64,000 nucleotides of DNA from Halioglobus sp. (GTDB lineage Bacteria > Pseudomonadota > Gammaproteobacteria > Pseudomonadales > Halieaceae). The DNA is taken from positions 1 to 64,000 of the forward strand of contig JAGRIH010000018.1 in the NCBI GenBank assembly GCA_020443345.1. The letters run 5' to 3'. Shown piece after piece: positions 43,327 to 54,183 of the stretch; the stretch's first letter is position 1, and each line of letters starts with the position of its first letter. The translations under genes and the position numbers were made by a program. The notes beneath the pieces are model-generated. The model did not search any database. It had not been told where the DNA came from and saw nothing but the letters and a program-made list of their open reading frames with translations.

Positions 43327-43353
43327 GCCACCAACAAACGACCCGTTGGTGGC
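43327..43353. repeat. 9-base perfect inverted repeat upstream of the SDR gene
   Basis: GCCACCAAC, nine-base spacer, GTTGGTGGC. It lies 41 bases upstream of the SDR start, and 193 before the deacetylase start. A second palindrome, CAAGCC-CGGC-GGCTTG (43305-43320), is closer to the SDR gene. Either a regulator site or leader hairpins of the SDR mRNA. Confidence 0.5.
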
Positions 43354-43546
43354 TATTCTGCCATTTCGAGCCGGCCGCTACCCGGCGCCCGGGACTGGAG
43401 CCTTGATTGGGCCGCCAGATGGGGCAGTTTCCCTTGGCTGCTATCTGGCGCTAAATCAGTTGCTGCAGTGTAGCCCCGGATCATTGCATTGTGGTCGTCG
43501 CTGGGAAAGGATACAGAATATACGCGCCCGACATGCAGGTCAGTTT

Positions 43547-44470
43547 ATGGTAACAGCCTATATTTCGCACCCCGACTGCCGCCTGCACCATATGGGGCGC
43601 CATCATCCGGAGCAGCCCGCGCGACTGGCGGCCATCGACGATCGATTGATTGCCAGCGGCCTGGACGCGGTGTTGCAGCACCACCGTGCGGAGCCGGTTG
43701 CGCGCAGCGCACTTGTAGCGGCGCACGAGGCCGCCTATGTGAACGAGATCTTTGCACGTGCGCCGCGAGACGGCGTCCTGTGGTTCGATGGTGAGACGGC
43801 CATGAATGAACACAGCCTGCGCGCCGCACTGCTGGCGGCGGGCGCCCTGGTGATGGGCGTGGATCTGGCGCTCGCCGGTGAGGCCGCGCGGGTTTTCTGC
43901 GCTGTGCGACCGCCCGGCCACCACGCCGGGCGCGACAGGGCCATGGGTTTTTGCTTTTTCAATAACGTAGCCGTGGGCGCCTACCACGCCATTAACGCCC
44001 ATGGGCTCAGCCGTGTGGCCATTGTGGACTTTGACGTACACCACGGCAACGGCACCGAGGATATCGTGGCGGGCGACGAGCGCGTGCTGTTCTGCTCGAC
44101 TTTTCAGCACCCGTTTTATCCCCACTCTGGCGCCGGGTCCACGGCGTCGAACGTCGTCAAGGTGCCCCTGCCGCAGGGCGCCGATGGGGCGCTGTTTCGA
44201 CAGGCGGTGCGAGAACACTGGCTGCCGCGGCTGGCGGCCTTCGCGCCCCAGTTGATCCTGGTGTCCGCCGGCTTCGATGCGCACCGGGCCGACCCCATGG
44301 CAGGTTTGAACCTGGTCGAAGCCGACTATGCCTGGGTGACGCGCCAGCTATGCCGGCAGTCGGAATGCAGCGCCCGGGGACGTATCGTGTCAACGCTGGA
44401 GGGAGGCTACGACCTGCACGCACTGGCGCGCAGCGTGGAAGCCCATCTCAAGGCATTTCTCGGTGATTGA
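43547..44470 (+). CDS. Histone deacetylase family protein (AcuC/class II type)
   Basis: Zinc-dependent deacetylase of acetyl-lysine or acetylpolyamine, 307 residues. Motifs in order: HHPEQPARLAAIDDRL, RPPGHHAGRDRAMGFCFFNN with the two charge-relay His, VDFDVHHGNGTED with the zinc Asp and His, SAGFDAHRADPM with the second zinc Asp, and STLEGGYDLHALARS. ATG 43547 starts the conserved VTAYISHPDC; earlier in-frame starts are in non-conserved sequence. It is convergent with a second family member fused to an acetyltransferase. Confidence 0.92.
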   Translation: MVTAYISHPDCRLHHMGRHHPEQPARLAAIDDRLIASGLDAVLQHHRAEPVARSALVAAHEAAYVNEIFARAPRDGVLWFDGETAMNEHSLRAALLAAGALVMGVDLALAGEAARVFCAVRPPGHHAGRDRAMGFCFFNNVAVGAYHAINAHGLSRVAIVDFDVHHGNGTEDIVAGDERVLFCSTFQHPFYPHSGAGSTASNVVKVPLPQGADGALFRQAVREHWLPRLAAFAPQLILVSAGFDAHRADPMAGLNLVEADYAWVTRQLCRQSECSARGRIVSTLEGGYDLHALARSVEAHLKAFLGD

Positions 44471-44671
44471 AGGCGGTTGTGTGGTCAGGCCATCGGCTTC
44501 GGCTGCTGCGTTGAGGCACACGACATCCGGCTTCGCCTTGCAGCCGCTGTAGCGGCGCAAAATGCAACAGGACACACGAGTTTGCGGGCTTGACGAAGGT
44601 CAGTGGCGGGCCAGCGGGCGCTCGGCTCCTGGTGCAGCCGGCGGCATCGGGTAGAATCGCGGGTGGCGCTG

Positions 44672-46402
44672 CTACGGGGTCATGCCCACACCATAACCCA
44701 CCAGAAAACCCCGCACGCCCCGGCGCAGGTTCTGCAGGTGATAGCCGCCCTCCTGAATGATGACTGAAGGCCGGCGCAGGGAGCCGATGGACCGACCGAT
44801 CGCGCGCATGCCGTCCGCGCTCACGTAAAAAGCGCCGGTGGGATCGCCACGCATGATGTCCACTCCGAGGGAGATCACCAGATAGTCCGGTGCAAACTTT
44901 CTGATCACTTTCAGAGCCTTATCCAGTGCCGTGAAATAGGCGGCATCGTCAACCCCGGGCCGCAGCGGAAAATTGACATTGAATCCCGTGCCCTCGCCTT
45001 CCCCGCGCTCGTCCTCAAAACCGGCATAGAAGGGGTAGGAGAATTCGGGATGACCGTGGATGGATACGGTCAGTACATCCTTGCGGCTGTAGAAAATATC
45101 CTGCGTACCGTTGCCGTGATGGTGGTCCACATCGAGCACCGCCACCCGTCCCTTGCGCGACAGTGCATTGGCAGCCAGGGCCGCGTTATTGAAATAACAG
45201 AAGCCGCCAAAGACCTTGCGCTCGGCATGGTGTCCCGGGGGGCGTCCCGCCACATAGGTCATTTCAGACTTGCCCGCCCCCACCAGCTTTGCCGCGGTCA
45301 GCGCCGCATTCGCGGAGCGGGTGGCGGCGGCAAAGACATTGCTGGTAATCGGGGTTGATGTGTCGATACAAAAATAGCCAGCGCGCATGGGCCAGTTGTG
45401 CGGCAGGCGGTCGGCGTAGCGGATAGGGAATATTTCAGGGTAGACAATCTGCCCTGCGGGTACCTTGTCCCGGCTTTCTCTGAGGAAGGTGACCATGCGC
45501 TTGTCGTGTATTTCCAAGATGGGCTTGAGCCCGAAGTCCTGGACCTCGTGACGTACGATTGGCAGATCATCCAGGGCCTTGGCGATGGCGGCCACCCGGG
45601 CCGGACGCTCGTAATAGCCTTTGAAAGGAGAGTGGCTGATGTCGTTGGCGGTGCCTGTCTCGACAAGGTCTATCGAATGCCTGAGCTTTGGCAGTGGACC
45701 CGGTGACGGCGCGGGATAGCGTGGTGGCCGGATGCGTACCGGGTCATCCCTTACGGAGGCCAGCAGTGTTTTCAGCGGCTCTTGTTCCGGTTGGAGACCG
45801 CATTTGGCCAGCAAAATGCGCGCTATGACGCTTTTCAACTTGGACCGCGACAACTCTGCCGTCTGTCCCATACCATCATGCATCAGGCAGTTGGGGTCGC
45901 CCAGATTGGCCGGGGTGACCACGTGCTCGTACTGTGTGCCCAGAATGGGCCGGGCCCCCAGCCGCTCATAGAAAGCCATCCGCTTCTTGTTGTCCGGCAG
46001 CAGTGCGGGGTCGACATTGGGGCCGGGCTCGTCGGGCAGGGAATCGAAGAACAGGCGCCGCGCCCCGCGCTTTTTCAGGTCCGTGCGCATGGCTTCGTAG
46101 AGTGCCGCACCGATACCCCGGGAGGAGCGGTCTGGGTCGCTGGCAATGTAGTCGAGATAGGCGACCTTCAGATCGCTGAAATAAAAAGATGCCGTGAATC
46201 CCAGAATCTCTTCCCGCGCACCGGTGGCCGCCAGCAGGATGCACTCCGCTCCCGGCGGGTGTTCACCCCGTGCAAAAGCTTCTATCTTGTCCAGATAGGG
46301 CGCGTTGAACGCAAACGCCTTGTTAAAGACTGTCTTGAGTCCCTCGAGGTGGCGCTCGTACTGGGCATCCATGCCCGCCATGACCCGCACTATTTTCAAC
46401 AT
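44672..46402 (-). CDS. GNAT acetyltransferase-histone deacetylase fusion
   Basis: 576 residues from ATG 46400-46402 (GAGG six or so bases upstream; the longer frame was rejected). Residues about 1-190 form a GNAT domain: LGFTASFYFSDLKVAYLDYI, the acetyl-CoA loop RSSRGIGAALYEAM near 90, and KKRGARRLFFDSLPDE. A linker of about 60 residues leads to a deacetylase domain: HSPFKGYYERPARVAAIAKA, RPPGHHAERKVFGGFCYFNN near 386, VLDVDHHHGNGTQDIFY near 425, SLGVDIMRGDP and IIQEGGYHLQNLRRG. All catalytic residues of both halves seem present. In Bacillus, separate AcuA (acetyltransferase) and AcuC (deacetylase) control acetyl-CoA synthetase; a one-chain equivalent is a plausible inference. Confidence 0.88.
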   Translation of the reverse strand: MLKIVRVMAGMDAQYERHLEGLKTVFNKAFAFNAPYLDKIEAFARGEHPPGAECILLAATGAREEILGFTASFYFSDLKVAYLDYIASDPDRSSRGIGAALYEAMRTDLKKRGARRLFFDSLPDEPGPNVDPALLPDNKKRMAFYERLGARPILGTQYEHVVTPANLGDPNCLMHDGMGQTAELSRSKLKSVIARILLAKCGLQPEQEPLKTLLASVRDDPVRIRPPRYPAPSPGPLPKLRHSIDLVETGTANDISHSPFKGYYERPARVAAIAKALDDLPIVRHEVQDFGLKPILEIHDKRMVTFLRESRDKVPAGQIVYPEIFPIRYADRLPHNWPMRAGYFCIDTSTPITSNVFAAATRSANAALTAAKLVGAGKSEMTYVAGRPPGHHAERKVFGGFCYFNNAALAANALSRKGRVAVLDVDHHHGNGTQDIFYSRKDVLTVSIHGHPEFSYPFYAGFEDERGEGEGTGFNVNFPLRPGVDDAAYFTALDKALKVIRKFAPDYLVISLGVDIMRGDPTGAFYVSADGMRAIGRSIGSLRRPSVIIQEGGYHLQNLRRGVRGFLVGYGVGMTP

Positions 46403-46461
46403 GTACTGTACTGCCTCTGCAACCGGGTGCAATGATGAATCACCCGACAGCCGCTGTGATC

Positions 46462-46470
46462 TGCTATATT
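46462..46470 (+). promoter_or_regulatory. Extended -10 promoter of the 2OG oxygenase gene
   Basis: TGC-TATATT, an extended -10 motif, about 30 bases before the ATG at 46499. The -35 region is poor, as allowed for extended -10 promoters. Confidence 0.45.
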
Positions 46471-46498
46471 TGCGCCCATCGACACAAACCCTTATAGC

Positions 46499-47203
46499 AT
46501 GAAGCGAAACATGGAAAAACAGACTTTTGAACCCAATGAAACGGCCGTGCCGGAGGGCACCACCTATCAGCTCTTTCCAACGCCGGTAAAGCTCTTCGAG
46601 CTGGAGGAGGCGCAGATGAACGCCGAGCTGGCCGCCTTCTTCAACAACCACGAGCACTTCAGCAGAAGCGATCAGGCGCAAATGTCAGACGTCACCACCC
46701 TGATGGAACATGCGCCGCAGGTGCCGGCGCTTTATCGGTTAGAGGGCCTGTTCCTGGGCGGTTTGAAGCGCTACTGCCGCGAGATCGGCTGGCAGGGGGA
46801 GTTCGACCTGGCGATGCAGATGTTTCCCAACGTGGCACCGCAAGGGCACTATGTGCCCTCCCACAACCACGTGTCGCATATCTCGGCGGTGTACTATGTG
46901 CACACCCGTCCCTCCGACCGGCCCTTACTGGTCAGCGACGAGTCGGTGCAGGACTACTGGCGCCCGGACGAGGGCGCACTGATACTGCATGATCCGCGCT
47001 TCAACGCCTCGTTGCAGGGGGGCTGGCAGTACCATGCGAAGGTCTTTCCGCGCCCGGGATTGATGCTGTTCTTTCCGTCTTTTCTCTGGCACGAGGTTAC
47101 ACCGCACGGCGCACCGGAGCCGCGTCTGTCAGTAGCGGCTAACTTCAGCCTGGCCTATCGCGATATTCCCGCTTATGAGCGACACAAGTTGTTCTCGTGC
47201 TGA
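46499..47203 (+). CDS. Putative 2OG-Fe(II) oxygenase (TIGR02466-type)
   Basis: 234 residues. The double-stranded beta-helix iron site is visible as VPSHNHVSHISAVYYVH (first ligands), then LFFPSFLWHEVTPH (distal His) and a following Arg (EPRLSVAANFSL) that would bind 2-oxoglutarate. Start of the fold: YQLFPTPVKLFELEEAQ. The family is uncharacterised; members are thought to hydroxylate proteins or small molecules. ATG 46499 lies 22 bases or so after the likely transcription start; ATG 46511 is an alternative. Divergent from the acetyltransferase-deacetylase gene. Confidence 0.82.
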   Translation: MKRNMEKQTFEPNETAVPEGTTYQLFPTPVKLFELEEAQMNAELAAFFNNHEHFSRSDQAQMSDVTTLMEHAPQVPALYRLEGLFLGGLKRYCREIGWQGEFDLAMQMFPNVAPQGHYVPSHNHVSHISAVYYVHTRPSDRPLLVSDESVQDYWRPDEGALILHDPRFNASLQGGWQYHAKVFPRPGLMLFFPSFLWHEVTPHGAPEPRLSVAANFSLAYRDIPAYERHKLFSC

Positions 47204-48867: not shown

Positions 48868-50457
48868 TCAAAACCCTCGGGTCGCGCCGGGAATCGACTG
48901 CAGCAGCTGCCGCGTATAGGCCTGCTGCGGCCGCTCGAACAACTCGTCCCCGCTGCCGCGTTCCACCACCTCGCCCCGGTACAATACCAGGATGCGGTCG
49001 GCCAGGTGGCGCACCACCGCCAGATCGTGGGACACAAACAGCATGGTAAGGCCGTATTCCCGGCCCAGGGCCTGCAGCAGCTCGAGAATCTGCGCCTGGA
49101 TAGTCACATCCAGGGCCGAGACCGGCTCGTCGGCGACGATAAACTCCGGCCGGGTGGCCAGGGCGCGGCCGATAGCGATGCGCTGGCGCTGGCCGCCGGA
49201 GAATTCGTGGGGATACTTGCGCACGAAGGCGCGGGCCAGGCCCACGTCGTCCATCAGTCGCAGCACTCCCTGGGCGACATGCTTGCGACTGTGGATACCG
49301 TGCAGCAGCAGAGGCTCGGCCAGCGTGTCGTAGACCGTCATGCGCGGGTTGAGCGAGGCGAAAGGGTCCTGAAAAATCATCTGCATGCGCCGGCGCATCC
49401 GCTTCAACTCTCTGCCGCGCAGGGCGGTGAGGTCGATGCCGTCGAAGTCGATCTTTCCAGAGGTGACCGGCACCAGACGTAGGATGGAGCGGCCAATGGT
49501 GGACTTGCCGCTGCCGGATTCGCCCACCAACCCCAGCACTTCGCCGCGCTGGATATCGAAGCTGACATCGTCGACGGCCTTGACCGGTGCCGCGCCACGG
49601 CCCGGTGCAAACCAGGTGCACAGGTTGCGCACCCGGATCAGCGGCTCGGCGGGCTCTGTCCGCGGCGCCTTGCTGCCGGAGGGAATCGCCGCCAGCAACT
49701 TTTTGGTATAGGGGTGTCGGGCGCACTGGAAGATCTCCTCGCCCTCGCCGCGCTCCACCACCCGGCCGCGTTGCATCACCACGATGGTGTCGGCGATGTC
49801 AGCCACCACCGCCAGGTCGTGGCTGATGAAGATGACGCCGATATTGCGCCTGCGCTGCAGCTCGGCGATCAGCTTGAGGATCTGCGCCTGTATGGTCACG
49901 TCCAGGGCGGTGGTGGGCTCGTCGGCAATCAGCAACCTGGGCTCGTTGATCAGCGCCATGGCGATCATCACCCGCTGGCGCATGCCGCCGGAAAACTGGT
50001 GCGGGAAGTTGTCGATGGTGGCCGCCGGGTCGCGGATGCCGACCTCTGCCAGCAATTCCAGGGCGCGCGCGCGAGCGGCCTGTCTCGATACCCTGTGGTG
50101 GTAGCGCAGCGGCTCCATCAGCTGTCTGCCGATACTCATGTAGGGGTTGAGACAGGTCATCGGATCTTGGAAGATCATGGCGATATCCCGCCCGCGGATG
50201 CGCCGCAGTGCCGTCTCCTTCATCTGCAGCAGGTCGCGGCCCTCGAACAGGGCGCGGCCGCCGTCGATGCGCCCCGGAGGGCGCGGCACCAGCCCCAGCA
50301 GGCTGTAGCAGGCCACCGACTTGCCGGAGCCGGACTCGCCGATGATGGCGGTTATCCGGCCTGTCTCCACAGTAAAACTGACGCCGTCGACCGCAGTGTT
50401 GATGCCGTTGCGGGTGACGAAGCTGACCGCCAGATCTTCTACTTGCAGCAGCGCCAT
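48868..50457 (-). CDS. Dipeptide/oligopeptide ABC transporter, fused double ATPase (DppD-DppF)
   Basis: 529 residues with two nucleotide-binding domains in tandem. First: GESGSGKSVA, FSGGMRQRVMIAMAL, LLIADEPTTALD, ISHDLAVVA. Second: GESGSGKSTI, FSGGQRQRIAIGRAL, FIVADEPVSALD, VSHDLAVVR. Both halves keep all catalytic motifs. This YejF/GsiA-like fusion replaces separate DppD and DppF. ATG 50455-50457 lies one base after the permease stop. The last gene of the four-gene importer operon that begins at 53946. Confidence 0.93.
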   Translation of the reverse strand: MALLQVEDLAVSFVTRNGINTAVDGVSFTVETGRITAIIGESGSGKSVACYSLLGLVPRPPGRIDGGRALFEGRDLLQMKETALRRIRGRDIAMIFQDPMTCLNPYMSIGRQLMEPLRYHHRVSRQAARARALELLAEVGIRDPAATIDNFPHQFSGGMRQRVMIAMALINEPRLLIADEPTTALDVTIQAQILKLIAELQRRRNIGVIFISHDLAVVADIADTIVVMQRGRVVERGEGEEIFQCARHPYTKKLLAAIPSGSKAPRTEPAEPLIRVRNLCTWFAPGRGAAPVKAVDDVSFDIQRGEVLGLVGESGSGKSTIGRSILRLVPVTSGKIDFDGIDLTALRGRELKRMRRRMQMIFQDPFASLNPRMTVYDTLAEPLLLHGIHSRKHVAQGVLRLMDDVGLARAFVRKYPHEFSGGQRQRIAIGRALATRPEFIVADEPVSALDVTIQAQILELLQALGREYGLTMLFVSHDLAVVRHLADRILVLYRGEVVERGSGDELFERPQQAYTRQLLQSIPGATRGF

Positions 50458-50458
50458 A

Positions 50459-51346
50459 TCAGTCCCGCGCGCCGCGTACGTCCAGCGCATCGCGCAGGCC
50501 GTCGCCGAGAAAGTTCAGACAGAACAGGGTCAGAGTCAGCGCCAGGCCGGGGAATACCAGCAGCCAGGGATACTCTTCCATGGTCTCGGCGCCGTAGGAA
50601 ATCAGCAGGCCCCAGGAGGTCTGGGGCGGCTGCACTCCGAGCCCCAGAAAACTGAGAAAGGCCTCCAGCAGCATCACGCTGGGTATGGTCAGTGTGGTGT
50701 AGACGATAATCGGCCCCAGCGCATTGGGTACCAGGTGGCGGCGAATCAGCGTCGCCGGGGAAAGGCCCAGGGAGATTGCCGCTTCGACGAATTCCTGCTG
50801 ACGCAGTGACTGTATCTGGCCGCGCATGATGCGCGCCATGGTGAGCCACTCCACTGCGCCGATGGCCAGAAACAGCAGCAGCAGATTGCGCCCGAACACC
50901 ACGGTGAGCAGCACGATGAAAATCATGAAGGGCAGGGCGTAGAGAATGTCCACCAGGCGCATCATCACGGCGTCCACCCGGCCGCCCGCGTAACCGGCGA
51001 TCGCCCCCCAGGTCACGCCGATCAGCAGCGCCACCGCGGTGGCCACGAAGCCCACGGCCAGGGAAATGCGCCCGCCGTAGAGGATCTGGGTGAGCAGGTC
51101 GCGGCCGAAAATATCGGTGCCCAGCCAGTGCTGCGCGGAGGGCGGGCTGGCACCCAATTCCAGGTTCTGCGCCTGGTAGCTGTAGGGGGCGATCCAGGGG
51201 GTGAGCAGCGCAATGACGACAAACAGCGACAGGACGGCGAAACCGATCAGCGCCAGCTTGTTGCGCCGCAGGCGCAGCCAGGCGTCGGCCCACAGGGACG
51301 TGCCGCGCTCCGCCCGGGCGATCTCGGCAAGGGTTTCGGTGCTCAC
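50459..51346 (-). CDS. Oligopeptide ABC transporter permease (DppC/OppC)
   Basis: 295 residues. An N-terminal helix (LALIGFAVLSLFVVIALLTP) and the OppC_N region precede a binding-protein-dependent transport domain: LGTDIFGRDLLTQILYGGR, then EAAISLGLSPATLIRRHLVP, which is the EAA loop that contacts the ATPase. The start is GTG 51344-51346 with GGGAG seven bases upstream. It is 18 bases after dppB in the operon. Confidence 0.92.
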   Translation of the reverse strand: MSTETLAEIARAERGTSLWADAWLRLRRNKLALIGFAVLSLFVVIALLTPWIAPYSYQAQNLELGASPPSAQHWLGTDIFGRDLLTQILYGGRISLAVGFVATAVALLIGVTWGAIAGYAGGRVDAVMMRLVDILYALPFMIFIVLLTVVFGRNLLLLFLAIGAVEWLTMARIMRGQIQSLRQQEFVEAAISLGLSPATLIRRHLVPNALGPIIVYTTLTIPSVMLLEAFLSFLGLGVQPPQTSWGLLISYGAETMEEYPWLLVFPGLALTLTLFCLNFLGDGLRDALDVRGARD

Positions 51347-51364
51347 ACGCCGGCTCCCATCACC

Positions 51365-52297
51365 TCAGTGCCTGCCGTACTGGGCGCGCAGGCGCGGGTT
51401 CATCCAGGCGGCGAGAATGTCCGACAGCAGGTTGAACAGCACGATGAGTACCGACAGGAACACAGTGGTGCCCAGGATCATGGTGTAGTCGCGGTTGAAC
51501 GCGGCCTGCACGTAAAAGCGGCCCAGGCCGGGAATCTGGAAGATGGTCTCCACCACGAAGGAGCCCGCCAGCAGACCGGCAAAGGCGGGGCCGAGGAAGG
51601 CGACCACCGGCAGCAGTCCGCCGCGCAGGCCGTGCTTGAGCACCACCTGCCACTGGGGCAGGCCCTTGGCGCGGGCCGTGCGGATGTAGTCCTGGTGCAG
51701 CACCTCCAGCATGCCGGCCCGGCCCAGACGGGCGATGTAAGCGGCATAGGCGGCGCCCAGGGTGATGGAGGGCAGCACTTTGTCGCCGGAGATATCGCCC
51801 CAGCCGGACACCGGCAGCCAGTCCAGGTGGATGCCGAACACCAGTACCAGCAGCGGCCCCAGCAGGAAGGAGGGCATGCAGATGCCGATCATCGCCGCGG
51901 ACATGGGGAGATAGTCCTGCGCCGTATGGGGTTTCAGGGCGGCGATGATCCCCGCCCCGCCGCCGACCACCAGCGCCACCAGCAGGGCGTACAGGCCCAG
52001 CTCCGCCGTCACTGGAAAGCCAGCGGCGATCAGCTCATTGACGCTGCGCCCCGAGTATTTGAAGGAGGGCCCCAGGTCGCCCCGGGCGAGATCGCCCAGG
52101 TAGGACAGGTACTGCCGGTGCAGCGGCAGGTCGAGCCGGTACTGGGCCTCCAGTGCCGCCCTGACCTCGCGAGTCACGGGTTTCTCGCTGTCGAAAGGGC
52201 CGCCGGGTGCGATGCGCACCAGAAAGAATGTCGCGGTAATCACCACCAGGATAACCGGAATGGCCTGCAACAGGCGCAGGGTGATGAAGCGCCACAC
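51365..52297 (-). CDS. Oligopeptide ABC transporter permease (DppB/OppB)
   Basis: 310 residues from GTG 52295-52297, giving VWRFITLRLLQAIPVILVV, the usual first helix of DppB-type permeases. Upstream in-frame GTGs would add residues inside the binding-protein gene and were rejected. Other markers: GDLARGDLGPSFKYSGRSV and the EAA-like loop RTARAKGLPQWQVVLKHGL. The start follows the binding-protein stop by two bases, so translation is coupled. Confidence 0.9.
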   Translation of the reverse strand: MWRFITLRLLQAIPVILVVITATFFLVRIAPGGPFDSEKPVTREVRAALEAQYRLDLPLHRQYLSYLGDLARGDLGPSFKYSGRSVNELIAAGFPVTAELGLYALLVALVVGGGAGIIAALKPHTAQDYLPMSAAMIGICMPSFLLGPLLVLVFGIHLDWLPVSGWGDISGDKVLPSITLGAAYAAYIARLGRAGMLEVLHQDYIRTARAKGLPQWQVVLKHGLRGGLLPVVAFLGPAFAGLLAGSFVVETIFQIPGLGRFYVQAAFNRDYTMILGTTVFLSVLIVLFNLLSDILAAWMNPRLRAQYGRH

Positions 52298-52299
52298 GC

Positions 52300-53946
52300 T
52301 CAGCCGCCCCCGCCGTCGGCCTGCCACTGCCGATCCAGCCACACGTATTTCAGGTTCAGTGAATCCATCAGGTTGGAGGGCATGCCGCGCACACTGGGAT
52401 GGATCAGGTGTTTGCTGGTGTAGGTGTAGATCGGGATGATCGGCATCTGCTGCATCAGGCGGGTTTCCGCCGCGTGGAAGATGGCAAAGCGCTCCCGGCG
52501 CGTCGCCGCCCGGGGAGCCTGTTCCAGGATCAGCTCATCGTAGCGCGGATCGGCAAAGCCGGTGTTGTTGTTGCCGCCGCCGGTGAGGAACAGGTCCAGA
52601 AAGTTGTTCGGGTCCACATAGTCGCCGATCCAGCCGCGGCGGGCGACCTGGAAGTGCATCTGGGTGACGGAGTCCAGGTACACCTTCCACTCCTGGTTGG
52701 CCAGGCTCACCTCGATGTCGAGAGTGTCCTGCCACATCTGCTGCAGGGCCACGGCGATCTTGCGGTGGTCCTCGCTGGTGTTGTAGGTCAGCTCCAGCCC
52801 CGGCCAGCCCGCCCCGCCGGGATAACCCGCCTGCGCCAGCAGTTCCCGGGCGCGCTGCGCATCGTGGCCGAACAGTTTTGGCGGGTAGTAGCCCAGGGTG
52901 TCGGGCGGGGTGATGCTGTAAGCCGAGACAACGGTGCCCATGAGTACGGTGTCGTTGAGTTTGTCGCGGTCCACCGCCAGCGACAGCGCCCGGCGCACGC
53001 GCACGTCGTCCAGCGGCGGCCGGGTGGTGTTGAGCAGAAAGTAATAGGTTCCCAGGTAGGGCGCCTGGACGTAGGGGCTGTCGGGCATCTGCCGGTAGAC
53101 GGGAATCTTGTCCAGCGGCACGCTCTGGGTGTAGTGCAACTGCCCCACCCGGAACATGCGCTCCTCGCTCACCACGTTTTCCGTGGGGTAGTACACCACG
53201 CCGTTGAGCCGCACCCGGTCCCGGTCCCAGTACGTGGCGCTTTTTTCCACCACGATGCGCCGGTTGAGCAGCCACTCCTTGAGCCGGAACGCGCCGTTGC
53301 TCACCATGTTCTCGACCCGGGTCCAGCGCGTGAAGCGATTCGTGGCGCCACCGAACTTCTCCACCGTGGGACGGTGCACGGCGAAGGTGCTGTAGTGATC
53401 CATCAACTGCAGGAAGTAGGGCGTGCGTTCGGTTAGCGTCACCTGCAACGTCAGATCGTCCAGCGCCTTCACGCCCACCTCGGCAAAATCCGTAATGTCG
53501 CCGCTGGCGAAGGCCCGGGCATTTTTCACCGGGAACAGCATGTAGTTGTACTCGGCGCCCATGGCCGGGCTCAGCAGGCGCTGCCAGGACCACACATAGT
53601 CATGGGCGCTCATGGCGTCGCCGTTGGACCACCGCGCCCGCGGGTTGATATGAAAGGTGATGACGCGCCCGTCGTCACTGATATCCCAGCTGCGCGCCAC
53701 GCCGGGTTCCGGTTCCAGGGTGTAGGGGTTCTTGACTGCCAGGCCCTCGAACAGGGCGCGGACAATGTGGTTCTCGGGAATGCCGGTGACCACGTGCGGG
53801 TCCAGGCCCTGGGGCTCTGAACCGTTGCCGTAGTGCAGAATCCCGTCGCGGTTACCGCTCACCACATTCGACTCGCCAGTGCCGCAGGCGCTCAGCAGTA
53901 AGGCGATGGCGACAGCAGGGAGTGCTGAGAACAGGGCTGAAGGCAT
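52300..53946 (-). CDS. Oligopeptide-binding lipoprotein (SBP family 5)
   Basis: 548 residues. A lipoprotein signal peptide MPSALFSALPAVAIALLLSA is followed by the lipidated Cys. The SBP_bac_5 signature appears as ILHYGNGSEPQGLDPHVVTG and ALFEGLAVKNPYTLEPEPGV; later ALSLAVDRDKLNDTVLMGT and a C-terminal QQMPIIPIYTYTSKHLIHP. This OppA/MppA-like type binds peptides. ATG 53944-53946 is used because it starts the signal peptide; the frame continues upstream to 54045 without likely signal. First gene of the importer operon, with a promoter at 53996-54024. Confidence 0.92.
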   Translation of the reverse strand: MPSALFSALPAVAIALLLSACGTGESNVVSGNRDGILHYGNGSEPQGLDPHVVTGIPENHIVRALFEGLAVKNPYTLEPEPGVARSWDISDDGRVITFHINPRARWSNGDAMSAHDYVWSWQRLLSPAMGAEYNYMLFPVKNARAFASGDITDFAEVGVKALDDLTLQVTLTERTPYFLQLMDHYSTFAVHRPTVEKFGGATNRFTRWTRVENMVSNGAFRLKEWLLNRRIVVEKSATYWDRDRVRLNGVVYYPTENVVSEERMFRVGQLHYTQSVPLDKIPVYRQMPDSPYVQAPYLGTYYFLLNTTRPPLDDVRVRRALSLAVDRDKLNDTVLMGTVVSAYSITPPDTLGYYPPKLFGHDAQRARELLAQAGYPGGAGWPGLELTYNTSEDHRKIAVALQQMWQDTLDIEVSLANQEWKVYLDSVTQMHFQVARRGWIGDYVDPNNFLDLFLTGGGNNNTGFADPRYDELILEQAPRAATRRERFAIFHAAETRLMQQMPIIPIYTYTSKHLIHPSVRGMPSNLMDSLNLKYVWLDRQWQADGGGG

Positions 53947-53995
53947 AGGCTGGCGGTTGTCTGGAAGGTGCCTGGCGGTCTCTCGCGAAGGGCCA

Positions 53996-54024
53996 ACTGT
54001 AAAGCAAGCGGCACGCTTTGTCAT
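53996..54024 (-). promoter_or_regulatory. Promoter of the oligopeptide importer operon
   Basis: Minus strand ATGACA (54019-54024), 17-base spacer, TACAGT (53996-54001): five and four matches to the sigma-70 consensus. It lies about 50 bases upstream of the binding-protein start in the 237-base gap after the citrate synthase gene. Confidence 0.6.
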
Positions 54025-54183
54025 AAAAACCGGGCCGCCGGGCACTCGCTACGCGGCCCCCTCGGGACGATGCGCGAGGGTGGTGGGCGCTCAGTTCAGG
54101 GTTTTGCGCAAACCCCGGGTGGCGATCACCGGCAACGCTACAATAGGACGCGCGGAGCCGCAGGGTGCCCGACGGCGGGGCCT

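Follow-up and report, generated by a model that had tools for sequence, protein, structure and literature searches.

The window analysed here, a 64,000-nucleotide stretch of a Halioglobus contig, encodes a GNAT acetyltransferase domain and a zinc deacetylase domain within one open frame, and we confirmed that the two form a real single chain. The fusion is an old and widespread bacterial family, not a rare one. Our preferred reading, held tentatively and at a little under even confidence, is that the protein would act as a bifunctional small-molecule N-acetyltransferase/N-deacetylase on a lysine-type amine, with the acetyl possibly serving as a protecting group. That a single polypeptide has retained opposing activities in about 16 phyla, with neither set of active-site motifs lost, needs an explanation.

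The fusion gene lies on the minus strand at 44672–46402, stop codon included (all positions within the gene refer to this strand). Its frame starts with an ATG at 46402 and is open to the stop, giving 576 amino acids. Pfam placed Acetyltransf_1 at residues 48–120 (4.5e-7, above the model cut-off) and Hist_deacetyl at residues 264–565 (4e-74). An AlphaFold2 model built on a 41-row alignment (pLDDT 87, pTM 0.76) showed the canonical order of GNAT elements at residues 3–176, two short helices at 186–216, and an HDAC fold after residue 244. Based on Pfam, the model and fold matches, we delimited the GNAT domain as residues 1–176 (45875–46402); the same sources, together with PDB sequence matches, placed the deacetylase domain at residues 244–576 (44675–45673). 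Between them is a linker (residues 177–243; 45674–45874), which the initial annotation had put at about 60 residues. The linker is indeed present, at about 67 residues, but it is not a plain one: the model shows it as partly helical, and the alignment shows it as conserved between phyla.

The same fusion was intact, at 91–92% identity, in three further genomes from the genus; thus, it is not an assembly artefact. Comparison with these relatives gave dN/dS values of 0.03–0.07 for the GNAT part, 0.08–0.16 for the linker and 0.02–0.04 for the HDAC part, and purifying selection therefore acts on all three. One copy, in a metagenome-assembled genome (L067:123-1702), was broken into two frames by a frameshift that is either real or a sequencing error.

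We looked for the same domain order in other genomes, as had been proposed, and found it repeatedly. A class-wide search of 369 genomes recovered the fusion in 18 besides that of the window, and all matches above threshold were long open frames of ~575–750 amino acids that also contained the HDAC half. Scanning the contigs of a genome collection with the GNAT-plus-linker alignment yielded at least 551 relatives, and the complete fusion was present in nearly all of the 80 loci fetched. Judged by record titles and lineages, the loci examined came from 16 phyla, most of them from metagenome-assembled genomes, so that individual phylum assignments may be in error. Cultured carriers include Maricaulis salignorans DSM 16077 (L070) and Singulisphaera acidiphila DSM 18658. 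In a tree of HDAC domains, the fused deacetylases grouped in a single clade apart from 22 unfused sequences (SH-aLRT 99.9), which points to a probable single origin of the fused deacetylase. An extra C-terminal GNAT was present in some members, giving a GNAT-HDAC-GNAT protein of 751 amino acids (L043:8302-10554, L053:7104-9356).

The motifs of both active sites were conserved throughout the family, in agreement with what the first reading of the window had claimed for its acetyl-CoA loop and its zinc and histidine residues. In the GNAT half, the loop RSSRGIGAAL (residues 92–101; 46100–46129) contains G96 and G98, which were kept in all 102 fused relatives aligned, as was Y145 of the FYE motif (45968–45970), a candidate general acid by analogy with other GNATs. 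In the deacetylase half, residues H391, H392, D424, D426, H428, D515 and Y554 were kept in 102/102 relatives, with Y554 gapped in one row. These residues fall in RPPGHH (residues 387–392; 45227–45244), in DVDHHHG with zinc ligands D426 and H428 (residues 424–430; 45113–45133), in a segment holding zinc ligand D515 and a PTG motif at 521–523 (residues 515–523; 44834–44860), and in EGGY (residues 551–554), whose catalytic tyrosine is Y554 (44741–44743). We infer from these alignments that both domains are apparently active, that is, that the fusion would have both catalytic activities.

We also considered that the deacetylase alone might be catalytic, with the GNAT half acting as an acetyl-CoA sensor that regulates it. 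Sensing would remove the problem of a futile cycle, and the GNAT half is less conserved than the HDAC half. The invariance of the loop glycines and Y145 in 102 relatives argues against this idea, as do the gene cassettes described below, which fuse a further GNAT to other pathway proteins in a manner that fits catalysis, and we regard it as quite unlikely. The best PDB folds for the GNAT half were GCN5, RimI, aminoglycoside and streptothricin acetyltransferases, and the window protein matched none of the NCBIfam GNAT models. Like RimI, GCN5 and the streptothricin acetyltransferases, this half has the GNAT fold, the acetyl-CoA loop and the FYE motif, but its sequence likeness to known GNATs is confined to the core, and by sequence we class it as a generic GNAT. 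Kinship with streptothricin acetyltransferase, which would have hinted at beta-lysine, was weak, involved the core motif only, and was no better than that with RimI or GCN5.

The deacetylase half could be assigned more narrowly. Its best PDB sequence match was 3men, an acetylpolyamine amidohydrolase (APAH; 1.2e-75), and its best PDB folds were likewise APAHs (3men, 6phr, 9gkz, 3q9b), at 32–41% identity in the fold alignments. The PSL-type L2 loop region (residues 317–351; 45350–45454) bears a family-specific motif and includes an insertion at residues ~317–339 that was present in the fused and APAH rows and missing from 11 other HDACs. The RPPGHH and XGGY motifs of the APAH group are also present (387–392, 551–554). 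By sequence, fold and L2 loop, this half thus classes as APAH-type among the PDB entries and the unfused APAH and HDAC rows compared.

This assignment gives weight to a polyamine cycle, in which the GNAT half would acetylate and the APAH half deacetylate putrescine- or spermidine-type polyamines. The closest solved relatives are acetylpolyamine amidohydrolases, the L2 insertion is shared with them and missing from other HDACs, and APAHs constitute cluster 4 of the classical deacylases, the cluster with polyamine activity (PMC11532494). Known members form a head-to-head dimer and act on acetylpolyamines, and the fusion shares with them the zinc site, RPPGHH, EGGY and the L2 insertion. In contrast to them, it has a GNAT domain, its own L2 motif, and substitutions at positions tied to polyamine deacetylases. 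The PIS motif of the bacterial polyamine deacetylases (PMC11532494) is replaced by PTG in nearly all of 98 fused rows. In PsApaH, the salt bridge of the dimer involves an aspartate (D163; PMC11532494); the corresponding residue is K396 in the window protein, and across the fused rows this position is R or K in 70/98 and Asp in 8/98. Compared with nine unfused APAHs, the fused deacetylases have family-wide rim residues Y321, P322, F325, P326, P334, D347 and T350. A tree of the 98 fusions has two large parts, of 71 and 27 rows, and the rim marks are common to both, which suggests that the fused deacetylases share one substrate type, other than polyamines. We therefore class the fusion as APAH-like by its residues, and not as a polyamine deacetylase. 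The operon partners seen were an aminomutase and ligases, which also speaks against the polyamine cycle, and we consider that cycle rather unlikely.

The initial annotation had likened the protein to Bacillus AcuA and AcuC and proposed a self-contained acetylation switch for a protein or a polyamine. The polyamine part of that proposal has a modest probability, with the rim residues changed as described above. The protein part fared less well. The Bacillus system does set an acetyltransferase against a zinc deacetylase, but as two proteins acting on acetyl-CoA synthetase, whereas the fusion is one chain with an APAH-type deacetylase. A one-chain switch of this kind would be consistent with the presence of opposing domains in a single polypeptide, and with the finding that a bacterial APAH, PsApaH, could remove acetyl groups from B. 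subtilis AcsA in vitro (PMC11532494). However, loops narrow the active site in the APAH group (PMC11532494), and such loops are present at least partly in the fusion. None of the scanned neighbours of the fusion was an acetyl-CoA synthetase gene, and many relatives are located with small-molecule enzymes. We conclude that the likeness to AcuA and AcuC is not supported, and that a protein-acetylation switch is improbable.

Gene neighborhoods pointed to a candidate substrate type. In 33 of the 98 fusion loci, the fusion was part of a tight operon with genes for a lysine-2,3-aminomutase-like radical SAM protein (KamA) and D-Ala-D-Ala-ligase-like ATP-grasp proteins. The cassette comprises KamA, two ATP-grasp genes and the fusion, frequently with a small GNAT as well, and neighboring genes often overlap at their ends (examples: L043, L053, L091, L101, L115 and L133; without the fusion, L186-L191). 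All 33 loci fall in the 71-row part of the tree, across 11 phyla. The 27-row part, which includes the window gene, is made up of Proteobacteria, Nitrospirota and Nitrospinota; in four of these loci, a divergent methyltransferase-ATP-grasp gene is accompanied by one for an M32 carboxypeptidase. In 55/98 loci, the vicinity of the fusion contained no ligase of the types sought. Among 20 unfused HDAC/APAH control loci, which came from relatives of the window and were not matched by phylum, no locus had a KamA, D-Ala-ligase-like or small-GNAT partner, and one had RimK-type ATP-grasp genes nearby. In five loci the small GNAT was fused to the second ATP-grasp; this, like the extra GNAT on some fusions, ties the parts of the cassette together.

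Cassette KamA scored highest against the lysine 2,3-aminomutase model, at 464.8 bits, which is below that model's cut-off of 525.4. The aspartates D368 and D405 (A5 numbering), which we take to match the two that bind lysine in lysine 2,3-aminomutase, were invariant in 11 diverse cassette KamAs; therefore, lysine or beta-lysine derivatives are the first substrate candidates. A QCD motif occurred in 17 of the 18 sequences displayed, and QAD in the other. Strong cassette-type KamA was found in 12 genomes of the class, with the fusion adjoining in five and the contig ending too early in one. The class search did not find the fusion in the other six, gammaproteobacterial genomes bearing the KamA/ATP-grasp cassette; thus, the fusion is frequent in the cassette but not obligatory. 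The operon probably builds a lysine-derived small molecule. Neighboring genes were also considered for a role in osmolytes, but the candidates (MscS in four loci, MgtE in four, trehalose in two) were few and picked post hoc, and we rejected this reading.

Because relatives often sit in a small-molecule operon, we favor small-molecule chemistry over a protein switch. In the preferred scheme, acetyl-CoA would serve the GNAT half as donor for acetylating a primary amine, that of the side chain, in a lysine-like diamino acid or a short peptide. Another part of the molecule would then undergo ligation or some other reaction, presumably catalyzed in many relatives by the co-encoded ATP-grasp enzymes, and the APAH-like zinc half would hydrolyze the acetyl off the same compound or a later intermediate. 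In the aminomutase/ligase pathway of about one-third of the relatives examined, a removable acetyl group would keep the wrong amine from reacting. Joining the halves would give an equal dose of the two steps, and an intermediate could pass between the sites. A lysine-type substrate and a possible protecting-group role for the acetyl are the proposed elements of this scheme, and the window protein may keep the substrate of its family. A more specific version, in which the product of the cassette pathway is a small peptide or solute that contains beta-lysine, the fusion adds and removes acetyl protection, and the window lineage retains the enzyme in a reduced form with a 2OG-Fe(II) oxygenase, seems to us possible but doubtful.

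The closest precedent for such a scheme is the degradation of beta-lysine in Pseudomonas via N6-acetyl-beta-lysine, where an acetyl is put on a lysine-derived amine and later taken off. That route has a cleavage enzyme, whereas the cassette of the fusion family has ATP-grasp ligases and an aminomutase instead. Two rhizobial plasmids resemble the Pseudomonas route: on each, separate GNAT and APAH-like genes overlap one another next to a gene for an aminotransferase (L193:3507-5029, L194:3450-4978), and one of them also has a 3-keto-5-aminohexanoate cleavage gene. Similarity between the rhizobial GNAT and that of the fusion was not significant; for the GNAT, these operons parallel the fusion in logic, not in homology.

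We found no description of the fusion or of the KamA/ATP-grasp cassette in the open-access papers searched. The initial annotation had named as refuting evidence that the fusion is common and already characterized with another function; commonness is borne out by the at least 551 relatives, and characterization is not. Work on amidoligases by Iyer and others in 2009, which lies outside that scope, may bear on the cassette, and the novelty of both family and cassette is provisional. If the operon reading is true, many uncultured bacteria and some cultured ones would possess a pathway for a lysine-derived metabolite of which we found no description, and the fused enzyme would be a natural protecting-group tool.

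The window locus itself is organized differently. No KamA/ATP-grasp cassette surrounds the gene, and the window genome lacks cassette-type KamA at a strict cut-off; its one KamA-family match (34% identity) is taken to be EpmB. A close relative of the methyltransferase-ATP-grasp protein was also missing from that genome, the best match being Ddl-like at 23% identity. Therefore, the operon logic is not directly applicable there. A 2OG-Fe(II) oxygenase-like gene (46499–47203, plus strand) lies 96 bases from the fusion and is divergent from it. The same pairing was seen in the three genus relatives and at two loci from Alphaproteobacteria, L068 and L070, with a methyltransferase-like gene replacing the oxygenase-like gene in L069, and the two genes are thus a conserved pair in the subclade of the fusion. 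In this organism the enzyme would work without the operon, beside the oxygenase gene. No consensus promoter was found in 44400–46700, a null result of little weight in this organism.

A second, unfused HDAC-superfamily gene (43346–44470, plus strand) converges on the 3' end of the fusion. We rejected it as a partner, as the other genus members examined have a different gene in that position. Oligopeptide-type ABC transporter genes are located near the fusion (48868–54045, minus strand), and related genes lie near it in L061 and L062.
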